DNA from: Cytophagia bacterium
GTDB taxonomy: Bacteria > Bacteroidota > Bacteroidia > UBA7662
Reading direction: 5' to 3'
DNA length: 34,950 nucleotides
NCBI GenBank assembly: GCA_009926405.1
Contig: RFOZ01000004.1
Span: forward strand, 1-34,950
The notes under the pieces were generated by a model. The model ran no database searches. It saw nothing but the letters and a program-made list of their open reading frames with translations, and was not told where the DNA came from. This document shows positions 10,960 to 27,399 of this stretch, in pieces (position 1 is the stretch's first letter; every line of letters starts with the position of its first letter). The translations under genes and the position numbers were made by a program.

Positions 10960-11687
10960 AGGTCCACAAAATCCAACGCACGAACCTGCGATCCATTGCC
11001 TCCTGCCATCGGACGCTGGCGAACGATGAGGGCCTGACTACTATCCCCCACCGTTCCCAAGTAATGCACGGAACCCAGAGACAACGAGGATTCGGCCAGG
11101 AAAATCCTGGCTTCGTCCAAGGTTAACCCCGTCAAATTGGGGACCTCCACCAGCGAATCCGAATTGTTAAACCCAACCAACAAATCAATAACACTTCCTT
11201 TGGGCAGCATTTGGCCTGTGCGTACTTCCCTGCCTTTGTGTTGACCTCCAAGCACGACCTGGTGAGCCAGGTCAGGCTTCATAATTAACTGCCCAACCAC
11301 AAAACCCTTGTTGGTCAAATCCATGGTGGCTTTGCGCAAGGACAAGTCGGTCAAGTCAGGTACGGGCATGGACGGTAAATCCGAGAGGTTCAAGGTCAAA
11401 TAAACCGTGCGACCGCTCTTGACTTGGAAACCAGAGTCGGGGTCACTCAGGACCACCGCCGAAGGATCCAGGCCTTCGGCATAAACAGAATCCACAACCA
11501 TGAACCGAAGACCCCGGTCTTCTAATTCCCTTTGGGCATCTTCGAGGGATAACCCGCGCAATGCCGGAACAGAAATCGCATCTCCATGCGATGTATACCA
11601 ACCCAAGGTACCCCAAACAACCAGGGCCAAGAGGGCATTAAAGCCAAGGAAAATCACCAAAAACCGACGAAAAGGATGCTGAGTCAT
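10944..11687 (-). CDS. Membrane-anchored protein with three PASTA domains
   Basis: The protein has 247 residues. A short cytoplasmic tail is followed by one membrane helix (about 9-30), then three PASTA repeats at about 37-100, 106-172 and 178-245. Each shows the 'VPxLxGLSLxxA' opening (for example 'VPALRGLSLEDAQ', 'VPNLTGLTLDEAR'). PASTA domains bind muropeptides or beta-lactams in penicillin-binding proteins and PknB-type kinases; here there is no kinase or transpeptidase domain. Its ATG overlaps the stop of the ligase gene (ATGA), so it is translationally coupled to it. An envelope role linked to peptidoglycan is a reasonable inference, but ligand binding is unproven. Confidence 0.9.
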   Translation of the reverse strand: MTQHPFRRFLVIFLGFNALLALVVWGTLGWYTSHGDAISVPALRGLSLEDAQRELEDRGLRFMVVDSVYAEGLDPSAVVLSDPDSGFQVKSGRTVYLTLNLSDLPSMPVPDLTDLSLRKATMDLTNKGFVVGQLIMKPDLAHQVVLGGQHKGREVRTGQMLPKGSVIDLLVGFNNSDSLVEVPNLTGLTLDEARIFLAESSLSLGSVHYLGTVGDSSQALIVRQRPMAGGNGSQVRALDFVDLWLAD

Positions 11688-14380
11688 GGCTTGGTTCCGG
11701 AGTTAAAAAGGTTGGCTCTTTGAAGGCCCCTTTCAATGAGTTGAGCAATGAATTGGTGAGGTGTGTACTGAGCCAGGGCAGCTTGGTGATAAATACAAGT
11801 GGCAGGGGTCATCCCCGGCAACGAATTAATTTCTATGATGTGAACCACCGGCGGGCCCATCGCTGGAATGCTTACAAAGGCGTCAATGCGGCAATAACCC
11901 TCCACCCCTGTCCATTCTGCGGCATGACGGAGTTCTTCCTGAACCCGTTCCATGATTTCGGCTTGGCGTCCCGAATCGCTCGAAAAGCGTGCCGGGGTGA
12001 TATTGGTTCCCTGTCCCGCCAAGAATTTTTCTTCAAGGCTCAAGATGCCCGATCCGGCTATGCTTTCGGAGGGCTCAAAAACCTCAAATTCACGTTGACC
12101 ATTGGGCAAGGAGCGAATCATCATAGCCCCGGTGATTTCAAGGAAATGATCACCATCCCGTGCCTGTATAAATTGTTCCAACAAAAAACGATGGGCCACT
12201 CCGAACAGTTCAGGATCATGGATACCCAAGCGATCAGCCGATTCTTTGGGCCACGTTCCTTCTTCGCGAAAACAAAGCTGGGCATAGGCTTCCAAGTCAA
12301 GGATGTTCTCCAGACGACATACCCCGGTTGAACAACCATCATCCACCGGTTTTGCGACGAGGGGCCAAGAACCTAAGCCCTGAACCCACGGACTTTTGGC
12401 CTCCGAAAACCAAAACGCTTTGTCCACCAACCATTGCTCTGCGACCGACATTCCATGAGCGGATAATAACCGACCTGTGGCGTATTTGTCAATGGTCAAG
12501 GCACTGCTCGCCGGCCCGGAACCGTTGTAGGGTATCCCCAATTCCTCGAGACGCTTTTGGATCGTTCCATCTTCCCCGGGTCGTCCGTGCAACGCAATAA
12601 AAACAAAATCGACCAGCTGGGGTAACCTTTCCCACGATACCGCGACGGCTTTTTCCAAAGAATGAGGGGCATAAACAGAAAGCACCTCCTCAAAATCCTT
12701 GCGGATTCTGTGAAGGATGGGGGGTCTCTCCTTGCCTTCCAAACCACGCACAATGTCATCGGCATGGTCTTTGAGATGCAAGTGCATGGGCAATTGATGA
12801 AGATTCCACTGAGAATCCGAACCACTTAGAAACAAACTAACCGGTTCCATTCCTTCCATGGAACTTAGTTTTTCGAAGATGTTTCGGCCTGATTCCACGG
12901 AGATATGACGTTCAGAGGAATAGCCACCCATCAATACACCGACTCGTAGTCGCTTTTGGGAATTTTCACGACGGATCTTACCAAAATGATCCAACCTTTG
13001 GGCTAACAAACGAGCTGCCGATAAGCCCGGTTGGGCCTTTATCCGCGCATCCAACGAAATGCGAATCAGATAAGTCAAAAAGGCAGAAGGACTCAGACCC
13101 AATTCAGCGGCTTGTTGAAAGAAAAAAGAAGAGGGCATCATGCCCGATGTGGTGTTGGGATCGTTGAGGACGATTCGTCCGTTGTTGCAATAAAACCCGT
13201 CGATACGGGCATAGACCTCCAAATCAAAAGATACAAAGAGCCGAACGCATTCTTTGCGTAGTTCTTCAATGGCTTCCTCGGGCAAATCAATCGGTGTTTT
13301 TTTGCGGGCAAAACCCGGTAAATATTTCGACCGATAATCGTAGAATTTTGCTGTGGGGACAATTTCAGTGGGTGGCAAAGCGGCCGCCGAACCGTCTGGT
13401 TTTTGGAGTACAATGCACGAAAACTCCTTGCCGATCAAAATTTCTTCGATGAGCACTTCGGTTTCGGCATCTTGTGCTTCCAGATAACACAAGGTTCCCG
13501 AAGGCTGGGCTTGTAGCCAAGCCATCCACTCGTTGGGGCTTTCCCAAAAAAGTTGATGCTCCAAGTCCCTGGCTGGAAATCCGGGGCCGCTTCGAAAATC
13601 AGCCAAGGTTTCCAAGGCGGATGGTCCACGACGTAGCCAGGCATCCCGCTCCAACCGAACACAAAAAAAGGCGCGATCCAAGGCTTCTTCCAGGGAGTCT
13701 TTGTTAACTGTTTCCAGGACGGATAAACCAACACTGCTCCCTTGGTTGGCGGATTTGACAACGCATCCGGATGGAAAGTCCTTGGCAATCGTGGTCAACA
13801 ATGCCTGACGATCTGTGGAATTGGCATAGACCCAAGCGCTCCGGTCCACTTTGGCAAAGCGAGGCACCTGCCAACCCGCGGCCTGCATTTGTTCCCGCTG
13901 CTTGACCTTGTTCATACCCCATGCGCCGGCAACGGGACCACAACCTGAATAGGGCAATCCCAAAAAATCCAGCATGGATTGCACGCGGCCATCTTCCCCG
14001 TTCCGACCATGCAGAGCCAGGAAAGCAAAATCGATGCGTTCAGGGAGTTTTTCCCATGCCAAGGGCTCTCCAATCGCTTTTAGCCAACCTTCGGCTTGGT
14101 CTGCGTTGTAAGGGATTTGTTCGGCGTAGGGCAACCAAACCAGTGAACCGGTGGGATTTTGTTGAGCTGGGTAAAAATCGCGCAGACTGCCTTTGTACAA
14201 ATACGACCAATCCAGCAAAACCAATTTCCCAAAAGAATCCACCAAAAAGGGGGAAACCTCAAAAATGGATTTATCGAGAGTATCGTAGACCGTGCGCCCT
14301 CCGGCAAAAGAAACTTCGCGCTCGCGGGAATTACCACCGAGCAAGACGCCTATTCGAATTTTTGGATGGGTTGGCTTCAA
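11684..14380 (-). CDS. Tandem fusion of two D-alanine-D-alanine ligase (ATP-grasp) modules
   Basis: Starting at TTG 14380 the protein has 898 residues, against about 300-360 for a usual Ddl. The start is chosen because TTG overlaps the ferredoxin TGA (TTGA) and lies just before the first conserved strand; the ORF-track start at 14524 lies inside the ferredoxin gene. Module 1 (about 8-450) has 'GGNSREREVSF', 'HGRNGEDG', 'GSSVG' and 'PTAKFYDYRSKY', but its metal-binding end reads 'NDPNTTSGMM', with Asp in place of the usual Glu. Module 2 (about 478-885) has 'GGYSSERHIS', 'HGRPGEDG', 'GCSTGV' and the classical 'EINSLPGMTP', but no clear Y-x-K-Y loop. Each module also has an insertion after the GSSVG loop. 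Both may be active, or they may have divided the work. The PASTA gene follows with a 4-bp overlap. Confidence 0.9.
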   Translation of the reverse strand: MKPTHPKIRIGVLLGGNSREREVSFAGGRTVYDTLDKSIFEVSPFLVDSFGKLVLLDWSYLYKGSLRDFYPAQQNPTGSLVWLPYAEQIPYNADQAEGWLKAIGEPLAWEKLPERIDFAFLALHGRNGEDGRVQSMLDFLGLPYSGCGPVAGAWGMNKVKQREQMQAAGWQVPRFAKVDRSAWVYANSTDRQALLTTIAKDFPSGCVVKSANQGSSVGLSVLETVNKDSLEEALDRAFFCVRLERDAWLRRGPSALETLADFRSGPGFPARDLEHQLFWESPNEWMAWLQAQPSGTLCYLEAQDAETEVLIEEILIGKEFSCIVLQKPDGSAAALPPTEIVPTAKFYDYRSKYLPGFARKKTPIDLPEEAIEELRKECVRLFVSFDLEVYARIDGFYCNNGRIVLNDPNTTSGMMPSSFFFQQAAELGLSPSAFLTYLIRISLDARIKAQPGLSAARLLAQRLDHFGKIRRENSQKRLRVGVLMGGYSSERHISVESGRNIFEKLSSMEGMEPVSLFLSGSDSQWNLHQLPMHLHLKDHADDIVRGLEGKERPPILHRIRKDFEEVLSVYAPHSLEKAVAVSWERLPQLVDFVFIALHGRPGEDGTIQKRLEELGIPYNGSGPASSALTIDKYATGRLLSAHGMSVAEQWLVDKAFWFSEAKSPWVQGLGSWPLVAKPVDDGCSTGVCRLENILDLEAYAQLCFREEGTWPKESADRLGIHDPELFGVAHRFLLEQFIQARDGDHFLEITGAMMIRSLPNGQREFEVFEPSESIAGSGILSLEEKFLAGQGTNITPARFSSDSGRQAEIMERVQEELRHAAEWTGVEGYCRIDAFVSIPAMGPPVVHIIEINSLPGMTPATCIYHQAALAQYTPHQFIAQLIERGLQRANLFNSGTKP

Positions 14381-14736
14381 GGTTGGGCCTGGTCGTGGAG
14401 GTATTGTTTGCGATTCAAGAGGGTTTCGGTTGATTCGCGGCGATCCGGGTCCGGTACACAGCAATCCACCGGACAGACCGCCGCGCATTGCGGCTCTTCG
14501 TGAAAGCCCTCGCATTCGGTGCACTTGTCCGGTACGATAAAATAAATATCGTCCGAGACCGGTGTTTGCTCATCGTTGGCATGGGTGGTGCTGCCGTCGG
14601 GTCGTAGGACCAATCCACGGAGGGCGGTCCCCTGAGCATAGTTCCAGGAAACACCGCCTTCGTAAATCGCATTGTTGGGGCATTCGGGTTCGCAGGCCCC
14701 GCAATTAATGCACTGGTCGGTGATGATAATGGCCAT
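14377..14736 (-). CDS. Ferredoxin with two 4Fe-4S clusters
   Basis: The 119-residue protein has two cluster motifs. The first is CxxCxxCxxxCP (C9, C12, C15, C19), and the second is CxxC-x8-CxxxCP (C72, C75, C84, C88). The long second spacer is typical of the Allochromatium-type (Alvin) ferredoxins. An insertion of about 40 residues separates the two halves and a charged tail follows. It should act as a low-potential electron carrier in the cytoplasm. It is divergent from the acyl-CoA reductase gene (35 bp apart), a pairing common in Bacteroidota. Its TGA overlaps the TTG start of the double ligase gene. Confidence 0.95.
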   Translation of the reverse strand: MAIIITDQCINCGACEPECPNNAIYEGGVSWNYAQGTALRGLVLRPDGSTTHANDEQTPVSDDIYFIVPDKCTECEGFHEEPQCAAVCPVDCCVPDPDRRESTETLLNRKQYLHDQAQP

Positions 14737-20946: not shown

Positions 20947-21825
20947 CTAAAGGGTTTGGAGGTAAGCCAAAACAGCCTCGACTTCCATCGAGTCACCTTG
21001 CCATCGACCGGCTTCTCCGGCCCCTTTTTGGTAGTGTTCTAACACATCTCGAAGTGTTGCAGCTTGTCCATCATGAAAATAGGGCGCTGTTTTCTGTAGA
21101 TTTCGCAATACCGGGGTTCGAAGCCGTCCCCGGTCCTCTTCCTTCAAGGTCACAGCGGCCCGACCCAATTCATTCATTCGGTTTGGGAGGTTGAGGTTGT
21201 AGTACCCCCCATCGCTTTTGGCCTCTCCGTTATGGCAACGAATGCATGCGGCTTCTCCCTCAAAGAGCGATCGGCCCCTAGCAATCAGGGTAGGGTTGTT
21301 GGGGGGTGCGGTGTTCAAATCCTGGCGACCTTGTTCGCTCAGTTCCAATAGATAACGCTGCAAGGTCAACAAATAGGCCGAGGCTGGATCGGTGGATGGG
21401 TAGAGTCGCGTCAAAAGTTCATGATAGCCAGGATAAGCCTTTAACTTTTGATTTAAGGACCTCGGATCAAAAGCCATATCACCGTGCGCAGTGATGGCAG
21501 CCAAAACAGCCAAGCTTCCTATTTGGAGGGGTGGTACTCCCCCATCCGCCATGAGAGGCAGGTTAGTGGGTAGTCCCCATAAGGTCGGTGTATTCCTTCG
21601 CGTTTGGCGAGCAAAAGCTCCTACGGACAAAGGCAGTGTATCGGCAAAGGCATGCTCAGGACGATGACAAGAAGCACAGGAAACACGACCATCCGCCGAA
21701 AAGCGCTCATCCTCGAACAAAACGCTGCCCAAGGCGAGTTTTTCTGCATCCGGATTGGTGTGGGGTCGGCAAGCCGCAAAGCCCCCCAACAAGGCCAACA
21801 GAATTACGAACCTAAGGGGCGACAA
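20947..21825 (-). CDS. Diheme cytochrome c peroxidase, MauG/MbnH-like (second copy)
   Basis: The 292-residue lipoprotein has a lipobox ending 'GFAAC' (C19). Two c-type heme sites are CASCH (50-54) and CIRCH (194-198). Family motifs '[19 protein letters not shown]' and 'LRDVLEHY' are present. The loop that reads 'FWDGR' in most relatives is 'LMADGG' here, so this copy is divergent. Family members reduce peroxide or, in MauG and MbnH, oxidise residues of a partner protein. It overlaps the upstream diheme gene by 14 bp and ends the MbnP operon, so modification of the MbnP-like protein is a plausible job. Simple peroxidase activity is the alternative. Confidence 0.88.
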
Positions 21826-22897
21826 AATGGGGATTCAAGGCCAAGGTTGTATCGGTCAGGGATTGCAAAAAGGCAACCAAATCTGCTTTGTCTTGGGGGC
21901 TTAAGCGCAGTCCCCCGTTTTGGACCCGGAGATTGGCGTTGAGTGTGGAACTGGATTGCACTCCGCTGTTGTAATGTTCCACAACTTCTTCGAGGGTCGC
22001 GAACCGACCATCGTGCATATAAGGCGCCGTTAATCCCACATTTCGCAAAGAGGGGGTCTTGAATTTGCCCCGGTCGGAGGCCAACCCGGTAACCACCTGA
22101 AATCCAGGTTTGAGAACCGAATCCAACCCGTTGTTTTCAAAAGAACGATTGGTAAAAAGGGCGGTTCCATGGCAATGAAAACAATCCGCCCCTACGGGTC
22201 TTCCGGAACCAGGTGCGGAATATTCCCGCATAAAAAGGTCAAAGCCACGCTGTTCGGAAGGTGTTAGGTTGGCGAGTCCCATACGGGATAAATCAAAGCG
22301 TGATCGGTACGAAGTAAGACTCAGAAGGTACTGCTCCAAAGCCCATTGAAGTCGCTGTATCGTGATACTTTCATCCCCAAAGGCCTTCCCAAACGCGACT
22401 CGATAGGCTTGGTCTCCGCTTAAACGCCCCAAAGCCTGCCCCAAGGACAAATGCATTTCCACCGGATCCTGAATCGGCTGCAAAACCTGATCCCTCAAGT
22501 TGGGCGAACGCCCATCCCAAAAAAATCGATTCGCCCATAACAAATTAAAAAGAGGCATCGCGTTAAATTTCCCCAAGGCCCCACCGATCCCCTTGCTATA
22601 AACCACGGTATCCGAAAAGGCCCGGTTGGGATGATGGCAGGAAGCGCAGGATACCGTGTAATCCAAGCTCAGTGTTTTGTCAAAAAATAAACGTTTTCCC
22701 AGCGCCACTCCTTCCACCGAGGGCGGATTGTCCTGAGGCCAAGGCAGGTTGGGAAATCCTAGACCGGGCGGGGGACTATCCGGAACAAAAGTCGTTGGTT
22801 TGGGATAGGAGGTCGGTTCATCGGGACCACATGATACCAGGAGTCCGCACAAGGCCCCAAGCCAAATTCCAAAAATTCTTGAGCGCAAGACCAACAC
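21812..22897 (-). CDS. Diheme cytochrome c peroxidase, MauG/MbnH-like (first copy)
   Basis: The 361-residue lipoprotein has a lipobox ending 'LLVSC' (C23), then a Pro-rich linker. Heme sites are CASCH (84-88) and CFHCH (239-243). It has the standard 'RFFWDGR' and '[20 protein letters not shown]' motifs. It lies 10 bp after the MbnP-like gene. In methanotrophs the diheme enzyme MbnH converts a Trp of MbnP to kynurenine and so makes a copper site; this gene is the better of the two candidates for that role. It would act in the periplasm, anchored by lipid. Confidence 0.9.
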
Positions 22898-22907
22898 GAT
22901 TGGTACC

Positions 22908-23693
22908 TTAGGGTGTTACAAGGCCTTTCCAAACATAGGCCGATGCCAAATTGTAAGCGAGTTTGGAAGCCACCCGATCTCCCAGCGAAGAATGCGAAAA
23001 GGAGGAAGAATCGGTGATGGAATGGGTGTGGGTTCCATCAAAAAATCGACGCATTTGCAATTGGACTGAGAGATCAGCCGAGGGACCTTCCAAAGCCACG
23101 GATGAAAACGGCAAAATCACGGTCCGTAACATTTCATCACCCCCCAGATGATACGAAAATCCTCCGTTCACCGGCAGGTTAGGACGCTGATACTGCCCTT
23201 CCATTTTGAAGAAAATATAACCACTGTTCCAATTCCAATGCATATGTGCACTGTTCAGCAAGGAAAGAGGATGGCTGGGTGGCCAAGAAGCTGGATCGCT
23301 GTGATTTAGAAGGGAATCCAAACCAACACGAAACCTTAGGGCCGTGTAGGTCCCGGCAGGAACCAAGGGAGCCAAACGCCAACGGGATTGGGTTTGTCGC
23401 TCCAAATCTGCATAAAAAACGGCATCCGGGAATTCCAGCCAAGAGCTGTCGGTACGCTGCAAGGCAAAACCGCTGAGATAATATTGACAATGATTAATTT
23501 CAATTTGATTCATGAGAGTGGGTAACCACGCACGATTTAGTTCCAACGATGACGAATCGTAACGGTGGTCCAACCGCAAATACAAACCGGCTTCGTTAAC
23601 AACCGGTGGATGCGGTGGGTGGGTATCGCACGATTGCATGGCAGCCGAGAGAAACAACCAAGCAAGTCCAAAAAATTTAGAGAACGTCTTCAT
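22908..23693 (-). CDS. MbnP-like copper-binding lipoprotein
   Basis: The 261-residue protein has a signal peptide with the lipobox 'AMQSC' (C22) and a His/Pro-rich segment after it. The core has 'FRVGLDSLLNHSD' and the signature 'HMHWNWNSGYIFFKMEG' (150-166), which matches the MbnP family. Two Trp (W153, W155) and His (H150, H152) cluster there, and one Trp may be the residue converted to kynurenine. MbnP proteins bind copper through kynurenine made by a MauG-like partner. Two such partners follow directly, supporting the call. The ATG overlaps the upstream gene by 17 bp. Which Trp is modified cannot be decided without alignment. Confidence 0.82.
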   Translation of the reverse strand: MKTFSKFFGLAWLFLSAAMQSCDTHPPHPPVVNEAGLYLRLDHRYDSSSLELNRAWLPTLMNQIEINHCQYYLSGFALQRTDSSWLEFPDAVFYADLERQTQSRWRLAPLVPAGTYTALRFRVGLDSLLNHSDPASWPPSHPLSLLNSAHMHWNWNSGYIFFKMEGQYQRPNLPVNGGFSYHLGGDEMLRTVILPFSSVALEGPSADLSVQLQMRRFFDGTHTHSITDSSSFSHSSLGDRVASKLAYNLASAYVWKGLVTP

Positions 23694-25621: not shown

Positions 25622-25625
25622 GAGT

Positions 25626-25940
25626 GGTTGCGCGTTCCGCCGCTGGCACCTTGGTGCTAGAGGAAAGTCCGGACAACGCAGAGCGCCAGGCTTTGGAAAC
25701 AAAGGCCGGGGGAACCCGGTAGAAAGTGCCACAGAAAAGAACCGGCCGTAAGGTCATGGGTGAAAACGTGAGGTAAAAGCTCACGCGCTCCGATGGTGAC
25801 ATCGGTTTGGGGTAAACCTCCTGGGTTGCAAGGCCGTGTATACCGGGGCAGCGTTGCTCGCGCGTTCCCGGGGGGTAGGCCGCTTAGATAAATGGTGGAA
25901 ATGCCGCAAGGCATACAGAATCTGGCTTACAGCGCAACCT
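25626..25940 (+). ncRNA. rnpB: RNase P RNA (bacterial class A)
   Basis: The catalytic RNA that removes 5' leaders from tRNA precursors. The conserved core is clear: GAGGAAAGTCCGGAC near 25660 (5' strand of P4 region), CACAGAAAA near 25729, GGTAAACCTCC near 25811, and AGATAAATGG followed by ACAGAATCTGGCTTAC near 25915 (3' strand of P4 region). The ends pair perfectly as helix P1: GGTTGCGC (25626-25633) with GCGCAACC (25932-25939). The length of about 315 nt is on the short side. A run of eight T follows. Only shadow ORFs cover this stretch in the ORF track. Confidence 0.96.
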
Positions 25941-25947
25941 TTTTTTT
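25932..25947 (+). terminator. rnpB end: P1 3' strand followed by T8
   Basis: GCGCAACC is followed by eight T (25940-25947). The P1 helix pairs with the far 5' end rather than a local strand, so this is not a classical local hairpin, but the T run marks the likely 3' end. Confidence 0.6.
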
Positions 25948-25973: not shown

Positions 25974-26000
25974 TGTTCACAAAAGGTGCGGTTTGTTCAC
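25974..26000 (+). promoter_or_regulatory. Direct repeat TGTTCAC x2, candidate operator before the regulator gene
   Basis: TGTTCAC occurs at 25974-25980 and 25994-26000, exactly 20 bp apart (about two helical turns), each followed by a base and AA. The inverted pair ATTCC (25958) / GGAAT (25970) overlaps the first copy. The position, 17 bp before the regulator's ATG, suits a tandem binding site, possibly for autoregulation. No binding protein can be named. Confidence 0.3.
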
Positions 26001-26016
26001 TAAATTAGACATTCCA

Positions 26017-27399
26017 ATGCGCATACTGGTTGTTGATGACGAGGCCCCCATCCGGGATAGCCTACAAGAAATACTTGAAAGCGAAGGCTTTGAAGTTGGA
26101 TTGGCCGGGGATGGTCTACAGGCCCTGCAAATCTTGACCGATTCTGAATTTGATTTGGTCCTCAGCGATATCAAAATGCCAAGGATGGACGGCATGGAGT
26201 TGTTGACCCATTTGGCCAAGAATTTCCCTCGATTGCCTGTGGTTATGATTTCGGCCCATGGCACGGTCCAAACCGCGGTTGAAGCAACCAAATTGGGAGC
26301 ATTCGATTTTATTACCAAGCCCCTGGACCTGGACCGCTTGCTGATCACTTTGCGCAATGCCTTGCAGATAAGCACCCTCAAACAAGAGGCCCTTTCGTGG
26401 TCCAACGACGATACCGATCCGGTCGAATTGCAGGGTCGTTCCCCCGCTTTGATAAGCCTCAAGGAAACCCTCCAAAGGGTGGCCCCCACCGAAGTTCGAA
26501 TACTCATTGCCGGACAGGCAGGAACCGGAAAAGAATGGATTGCCCGTTTTATTCATCGACTGAGTCCACGCAAAAACGGACCCTTTGTTTCGCTTAACTG
26601 CGCAACCATTCCAGCAGATCGATTGGAATACAGGCTTTTTGGGCGAAGCGAAGAACAGGGAACGGAGGGAATTCATCGTGGATCCTTCAACCAGGCCATC
26701 GGTGGAACCCTCTTTTTGGATGAAATTGCGGATTTACCCGGACCAGCTCAGTTAACCTTGGTACGGGTTTTGGAATCCATGGGAAATACAGGAGGAAATA
26801 CCCGCAATGGGGTTCGCATCTTGGCCGGTAGCCAAAAGGACCTGATTCATCTCATTGATCAAGGTCTGTTTCGGTTGGACTTGTACCATTTGTTAAGTGT
26901 TATTCTAGTGCACCTTCCTGCTTTAAACCAAAGACGGGAAGACATCCCTATGCTAGCGGGAATTTACCTTAACCAAATCTGCCGTCAATACCAGCTTCCC
27001 CCCCGAACCTGGGATCCCGAGGCTTTGCGCGCTTTGCAGTCCATGCCATGGACGGGTAACTTACGAGAACTCAAGAACGCTGTTGAACGTTTGGCCTTGC
27101 TGGGCGGTTCTCCTATTACCACGTCCGACATCGACCTCTACCTGCGACCTTCGGGATCGGCAACGGAATCAATGGGTCCGGAAGGAACAAAAGTAGAAGG
27201 ACAAACCTTGGAGAAATTATTGCAAGAGGGTAATTTTCAGCGCTTTAAGGAGCAGGCCGAAAAGCTCTTCGTTGAACGAAAATTAGAGGAGCATGGCTGG
27301 AATATCGCTAAAACGGCCGAAAGTATGGGAATCCAACGTTCGCACCTGTACAACAAACTCGAACGCTTTGGCCTGACCAAGCCAAAAAGCCGTTCCTAG
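26017..27399 (+). CDS. NtrC-family response regulator with degenerate sigma-54 activation loop
   Basis: The protein has 460 residues from the ATG at 26017; the ORF-track TTG adds eight unconserved residues. The receiver domain (1-115) has D7/D8, the phosphate acceptor D51 and K101. The AAA+ domain (about 138-375) has Walker A 'GQAGTGKE' (166-173) and Walker B 'GGTLFLDEI'. The GAFTGA loop that contacts sigma-54 is replaced by 'EQGTEG' (213-218), and of the 'FRxDLYYRL' arginines only the first remains ('FRLDLYHLL'). A Fis-type helix-turn-helix closes the protein (427-451). It probably binds DNA and ATP but may not activate sigma-54 promoters. No histidine kinase gene is adjacent. Its TAG shares CTAG with the stop of the convergent gene. 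Confidence 0.88.
   Translation: MRILVVDDEAPIRDSLQEILESEGFEVGLAGDGLQALQILTDSEFDLVLSDIKMPRMDGMELLTHLAKNFPRLPVVMISAHGTVQTAVEATKLGAFDFITKPLDLDRLLITLRNALQISTLKQEALSWSNDDTDPVELQGRSPALISLKETLQRVAPTEVRILIAGQAGTGKEWIARFIHRLSPRKNGPFVSLNCATIPADRLEYRLFGRSEEQGTEGIHRGSFNQAIGGTLFLDEIADLPGPAQLTLVRVLESMGNTGGNTRNGVRILAGSQKDLIHLIDQGLFRLDLYHLLSVILVHLPALNQRREDIPMLAGIYLNQICRQYQLPPRTWDPEALRALQSMPWTGNLRELKNAVERLALLGGSPITTSDIDLYLRPSGSATESMGPEGTKVEGQTLEKLLQEGNFQRFKEQAEKLFVERKLEEHGWNIAKTAESMGIQRSHLYNKLERFGLTKPKSRS

Follow-up and report, generated by a model that had tools for sequence, protein, structure and literature searches.

A Bacteroidia NtrC/NtrX-type regulator that has lost its sigma-54 contact loop and arginine finger and probably acts independently of sigma-54

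The window analysed here, a stretch of 34,950 nucleotides from a Cytophagia bacterium, encodes a response regulator of 460 residues (26017-27399, plus strand, as are all regulator features below). We suggest, with a probability of roughly 78%, that this protein is a phosphorylation-controlled, sigma-54-independent DNA-binding switch that diverged from a GAFTSA-type ortholog of the NtrC/NtrX type in Bacteroidia. Conversions of this kind are known; the present one was reached independently, in Bacteroidota, and with the arginine finger lost too. Here an enhancer-binding protein would have dismantled its sigma-54 motor and kept signal input and DNA output, an independent case of such a change. 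Because close relatives are still intact, the steps are testable by residue swaps between orthologs.

The reading frame runs from an ATG at 26017 to a stop at 27399, and its translation has the architecture of an NtrC-type response regulator, i.e., a receiver (REC), a Sigma54_activat AAA+ domain and a Fis-type helix-turn-helix (HTH). All Pfam matches are above their cut-offs. They comprise Response_reg (PF00072, 116 bits, 26023-26349), with the phospho-acceptor Asp51 in LSDIKMP (26167-26169), Sigma54_activat (132 bits, 26431-26910), AAA_lid_14 (65.5 bits) and HTH_8 (PF02954, 30.6 bits, 27253-27369), the last with the conserved segment GIQRSHLYNKLERFGL. The Sigma54_activat score is lowered, since two intact orthologs of the class reach 237 and 245 bits. 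The top NCBIfam model is the NtrX equivalog NF051870, at 383 bits against a curated cut-off of 600. Walker A (GQAGTGKE, 26512-26535) and Walker B (DE, 26719-26724) are kept. In particular, an alignment of 51 sequences shows no variation at the Gly, Lys and Glu of Walker A, the DE of Walker B, the switch Asn, the sensor II Arg, the phospho-acceptor Asp or the receiver Lys, nor at D50, K52 and K100 of the receiver (Arg2 counted as residue 1). No histidine kinase was recognised by eye among the open reading frames of the window, in a genome that is 78% complete. In a PF02518 search the HATPase_c genes of this incomplete genome sit on other contigs. Each genus genome yields between four and eight HATPase_c matches, and probably not all of these are kinases.

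The losses fall on the parts of the AAA+ domain that contact sigma-54 and complete the ATPase site. Where GAFTGA is expected the regulator reads LFGRSEEQGTEGIHRGSF; EQGTEG (26653-26670) aligns with the GAFTSA or GAFTGA of orthologs, and loop 1 is two residues shorter. The loop 2 region, SMGNTGGNTRNG (26776-26811), is shorter than in orthologs by four residues. At sensor I, GSQ replaces ATN (26827-26835), so that AATN has become AGSQ (RILAGSQKD versus RVVAATNKD). The arginine-finger segment RLDLYHL (26872-26892) keeps its first Arg (R286) and has Leu at 26890-26892 instead of the second, as is seen from FRLDLYHLLSV in the regulator and FREDLYYRLGV in NtrC1. This Leu aligns with NtrC1 R299 and PspF R168, the arginine finger that acts in trans (PMC7175178). 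Compared with a canonical enhancer-binding protein, the GAFTGA of loop 1 is replaced by EQGTEG or unrelated filler across the genus, and the ATPase site retains Walker A, Walker B and sensor II and lacks the sensor I Asn and the second finger Arg. An earlier, sequence-only reading of this DNA had placed EQGTEG at the GAFTGA position, seen the second arginine missing from FRLDLYHLL, and described the Walker motifs, phosphorylation site and DNA-binding domain as kept. The alignments bear out each of these points and add two departures, at sensor I and in loop 2. That reading had named an intact GAFTGA elsewhere in the loop as something that would speak against it; an alignment search found none in the regulator, and the motif is absent from all eight genus sequences. 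In an AlphaFold2 model (mean pLDDT 80.6, pTM 0.50), confidence falls below 50 over residues 210-219 (loop 1) and 256-261 (loop 2). The model says only that an ordered loop 1 is not predicted.

These changes are shared by the genus. The gene is present in eight of its nine genomes (the ninth is 87% complete), the loop losses are common to all eight sequences, and the sensor I Asn and finger Arg are lost in the seven that are long enough to reach them. The loop filler varies, with EQGTEG, EQGTDA, EQGADA, PSGDTL, PVGNNL, PPGDKL and SSGDAL. Since all eight sequences are without GAFTGA and their fillers differ, sequencing error does not account for the loss. A second activator, a paralog with intact GSFTGA, AATN and FREDLYYRM, is found in 8/8 genus genomes examined and is an internal control against systematic error. 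Among within-genus pairs with unsaturated dS, dN/dS (Nei-Gojobori) is mostly 0.02-0.07 in the REC, AAA+ and HTH domains; it is higher in loop 1, at most 0.15, where the two halves of the genus are about 51% identical. By these substitution rates and the intact frames in relatives, the gene is functional and held by strong purifying selection.

The regulator can be placed by its neighbours. In the family the gene order is cytochrome c peroxidases, an MbnP-like protein, a short protein, the regulator, two CHU_C-type proteins, LepA, FolD and QueE. Other genera of the family show the same order around the regulator, which lies directly behind rnpB in the aligned family members. Because this order is shared, the gene is taken as the positional ortholog of the Bacteroidia regulator. 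In a tree whose sequences do not include alphaproteobacterial NtrX, the genus falls within its own order with support of 100/98. The genus stem measures 2.26 changes per site versus inner branches near 0.2, about tenfold. AAA+ identity to the rest of the order is 74% for the other family genera and 48% for the genus, and the corresponding values are 94% and 34% in loop 1 and 72% and 30% in loop 2, compared with 64% and 57% in REC and 59% and 55% in the HTH. Identity of the regulator is 76.7% within the rest of the family and 49.6% between genus and family, whereas LepA, FolD and QueE give 88.4, 68.0 and 61.0% within the rest of the family and 86.8, 64.9 and 57.0% between genus and family. Thus, the change is gene-specific and concentrated on the ATPase and sigma-54 face. 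Genome-wide acceleration is unsupported, as LepA, FolD and QueE show little of it.

The Bacteroidia relatives indicate what was lost. The sequence-only reading had proposed an alignment with Bacteroidota NtrC paralogs, and among 47 class orthologs, positional in the family, the arginine finger is intact in every one. The loop motif is GAFTSA or GSFTSA in 44, GSFTGA in two and GAFTHA in one. These NtrX-like regulators have the same REC, and the same HTH where it is present, but unlike the genus they retain loop 1, loop 2, sensor I and the finger, and 29 of the 47 are without the HTH. On this distribution the motif ancestral to the gene is of the GAFTSA type, and not GAFTGA as the sequence-only reading had assumed. 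The Gly-to-Ser difference of GAFTSA falls at the position of NorR G266, the second glycine of the motif, where NorR with Ser retains activity and is partly constitutive (PMC2941729). By this analogy the GAFTSA loop is probably functional. With such a loop and an intact finger, the ancestor was plausibly a working sigma-54 activator. A literature search for 'GAFTSA' gave no match. Surveys that are restricted to GAFTGA, such as that of PMC12316311, which retains solely GAFTGA-containing proteins, would overlook this class-wide family (loci L032-L036 and L050-L072). Many of the HTH-less orthologs follow grpE, dnaJ, ABC transporter ATPase, permease and Ppx-like genes, as named by eye from translations. 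Two genomes that are 97-99% complete have no rpoN match (PF04963) and an intact G[AS]FTSA loop in the regulator (L048 in G058 and L050 in G050).

Sigma-54 itself is still found in the genus. A check for rpoN, also suggested by the sequence-only reading, found the gene in five of the nine genus genomes, the window's own included; the other four are draft assemblies. The four copies that could be read completely all conserve region I and the RpoN box; the copy of the window genome is truncated by the end of its contig ahead of region I. The genus therefore still uses sigma-54, and lineage-wide loss of this factor was rejected as the cause of the changes in the regulator. Sigma-54 is presumably served by the GSFTGA activator, which has no receiver, a different HTH and 34-36% identity to the regulator. 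Since rpoN and this activator are both kept, another protein can carry out sigma-54 activation. In the genus RpoN (L088-L091), the acidic linker that follows region I is long and variable, and identity to the RpoN of other families is about 45%. A scan of the window for the -24/-12 pattern gave five one-mismatch matches where 4.0 are expected, which is chance level.

Comparable proteins are known. The top PDB match of the regulator, both by sequence (320 bits) and by fold, is Brucella abortus NtrX (PDB codes: 5m7n, 5m7o, 5m7p), which is likewise a REC-AAA+-Fis HTH protein without GAFTGA and with a shortened loop 1. Its sensor I, STAQ, also has Gln in place of Asn. However, the Brucella protein keeps the finger (FREDLFHRL), has a longer loop 2 and is alphaproteobacterial, whereas the regulator derives from a Bacteroidia gene of the GAFTSA type. 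GAFTGA is also missing from NtrC of Rhodobacter capsulatus, NtrC of Caulobacter and VpsR of Vibrio, which act on sigma-70 promoters (PMC10274813). The two NtrC proteins are phosphorylation-dependent and have loop 1 deleted, with the loss restricted to a genus or order as it is here, though their deletions are larger than that of the regulator (eight residues in Caulobacter) (PMC10274813). Rhodobacter capsulatus NtrC needs ATP binding and not hydrolysis, and Caulobacter NtrC requires the Walker B Asp in vivo (PMC10274813). The comparison with these two covers loop 1 alone; the loss of finger and sensor I is a feature of the regulator. Vibrio cholerae VpsR (PDB code: 7v2b), an AAA+ enhancer-binding-like protein, is a structural match at 28% identity, but it binds c-di-GMP.

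On the genus stem, the regulator lost the elements that push against sigma-54 (loop 1 and loop 2) and those that couple ATP hydrolysis between subunits (the sensor I Asn and the finger Arg that acts in trans), and it retained its receiver, its ATP-binding residues and the helix that reads DNA. For the mechanism we infer the following. Phosphorylation may change how the AAA+ domain oligomerises, perhaps with ATP held in place and hydrolysed only poorly, so that ATPase activity would be low. The HTH would bind the ancestral sites, and the regulator would repress or activate promoters that depend on the housekeeping sigma factor, instead of remodelling the sigma-54 holoenzyme. The sequence-only reading had suggested a sigma-54-independent regulator or repressor. 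This proposal is supported by the loop and finger of the orthologs, by a genus-wide loss under purifying selection and by a REC and HTH that are near normal. Across the genus the regulator keeps its Walker B Glu and its switch Asn. Such conservation would be strange in a protein that had given up hydrolysis altogether, and the Walker B Glu is the main caution against a dead ATPase. A contact with sigma-54 is also conceivable for certain loops that depart from the consensus. We are more tentative, at somewhat under even odds, about the narrower view that the regulator was independently converted into an oligomerisation switch that acts on housekeeping promoters and binds ATP without hydrolysing it, in a class with a natural GAFTSA activator.

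Two alternatives keep the regulator in contact with sigma-54 output. It could be a repressor or anti-activator that blocks this output by binding at ancestral sigma-54 enhancers or by joining an active activator in mixed rings. Its HTH recognition region is nearly identical to that of its relatives, and rpoN coexists in the genus with an activator that looks active. But the divergent architecture of that activator makes mixed rings unlikely, and the -24/-12 scan of the window lends the idea nothing above chance; we consider it unlikely, at about one chance in eight. Less probable still is an atypical but working activator with a new loop contact, perhaps co-evolved with the genus RpoN. Walker A and B are kept, and the divergence and longer acidic linker of the genus RpoN would suit such a partner. 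Against this, a conserved contact is not expected to differ in about half of its loop 1 positions between the two halves of the genus, the finger and sensor I have gone as well, and the conserved region I can be served by the GSFTGA activator.

The remaining alternatives concern the origin and reality of the gene, and we give both very little credence. The window genome is reduced and fragmented (1.24 Mb in 106 contigs), as could be expected if assembly had gone wrong or if the gene were a pseudogene decaying in a small genome. Both ideas are rejected by the same losses in separate, concordant genomes, by a frame that is open in eight of them, by low dN/dS and by conserved synteny. Horizontal transfer of a loop-less alphaproteobacterial NtrX would explain why the best named-family match is NtrX and why the best PDB match is the Brucella protein, with its similar short loop and sensor I Gln. 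It is disfavoured by the syntenic position, by a match of 471 bits and 52% identity to a Bacteroidia ortholog (G010) as compared with 320 bits to Brucella NtrX in a different search, and by the tree, which puts the gene in its own order from sequences that exclude alphaproteobacterial NtrX. Brucella NtrX moreover retains the arginine finger. A sigma-54-independent switch of Bacteroidia descent is the reading that we prefer.

Several other features of the window were recorded. RNase P RNA (RF00010, 198.7 bits, 25624-25945, plus strand) lies directly upstream of the regulator gene, an order of rnpB and regulator that the genus shares with two other genera of the family. The reading frame at 25657-25914 on the minus strand is merely the antisense of this RNA. 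Immediately 5' of the start codon is a short element, TTGTnnnnTAAATTAGAC (about 25990-26016, plus strand), that is largely kept in the genus, though the rest of the spacer is not conserved there. It is a candidate promoter or autoregulatory site. On the minus strand, 20947-23693 holds two di-haem cytochrome c peroxidase/MauG-like genes that adjoin an MbnP family protein, and 11684-14524 encodes a protein of 946 residues with two tandem D-Ala-D-Ala ligase modules, i.e., a fused duplicate Ddl.
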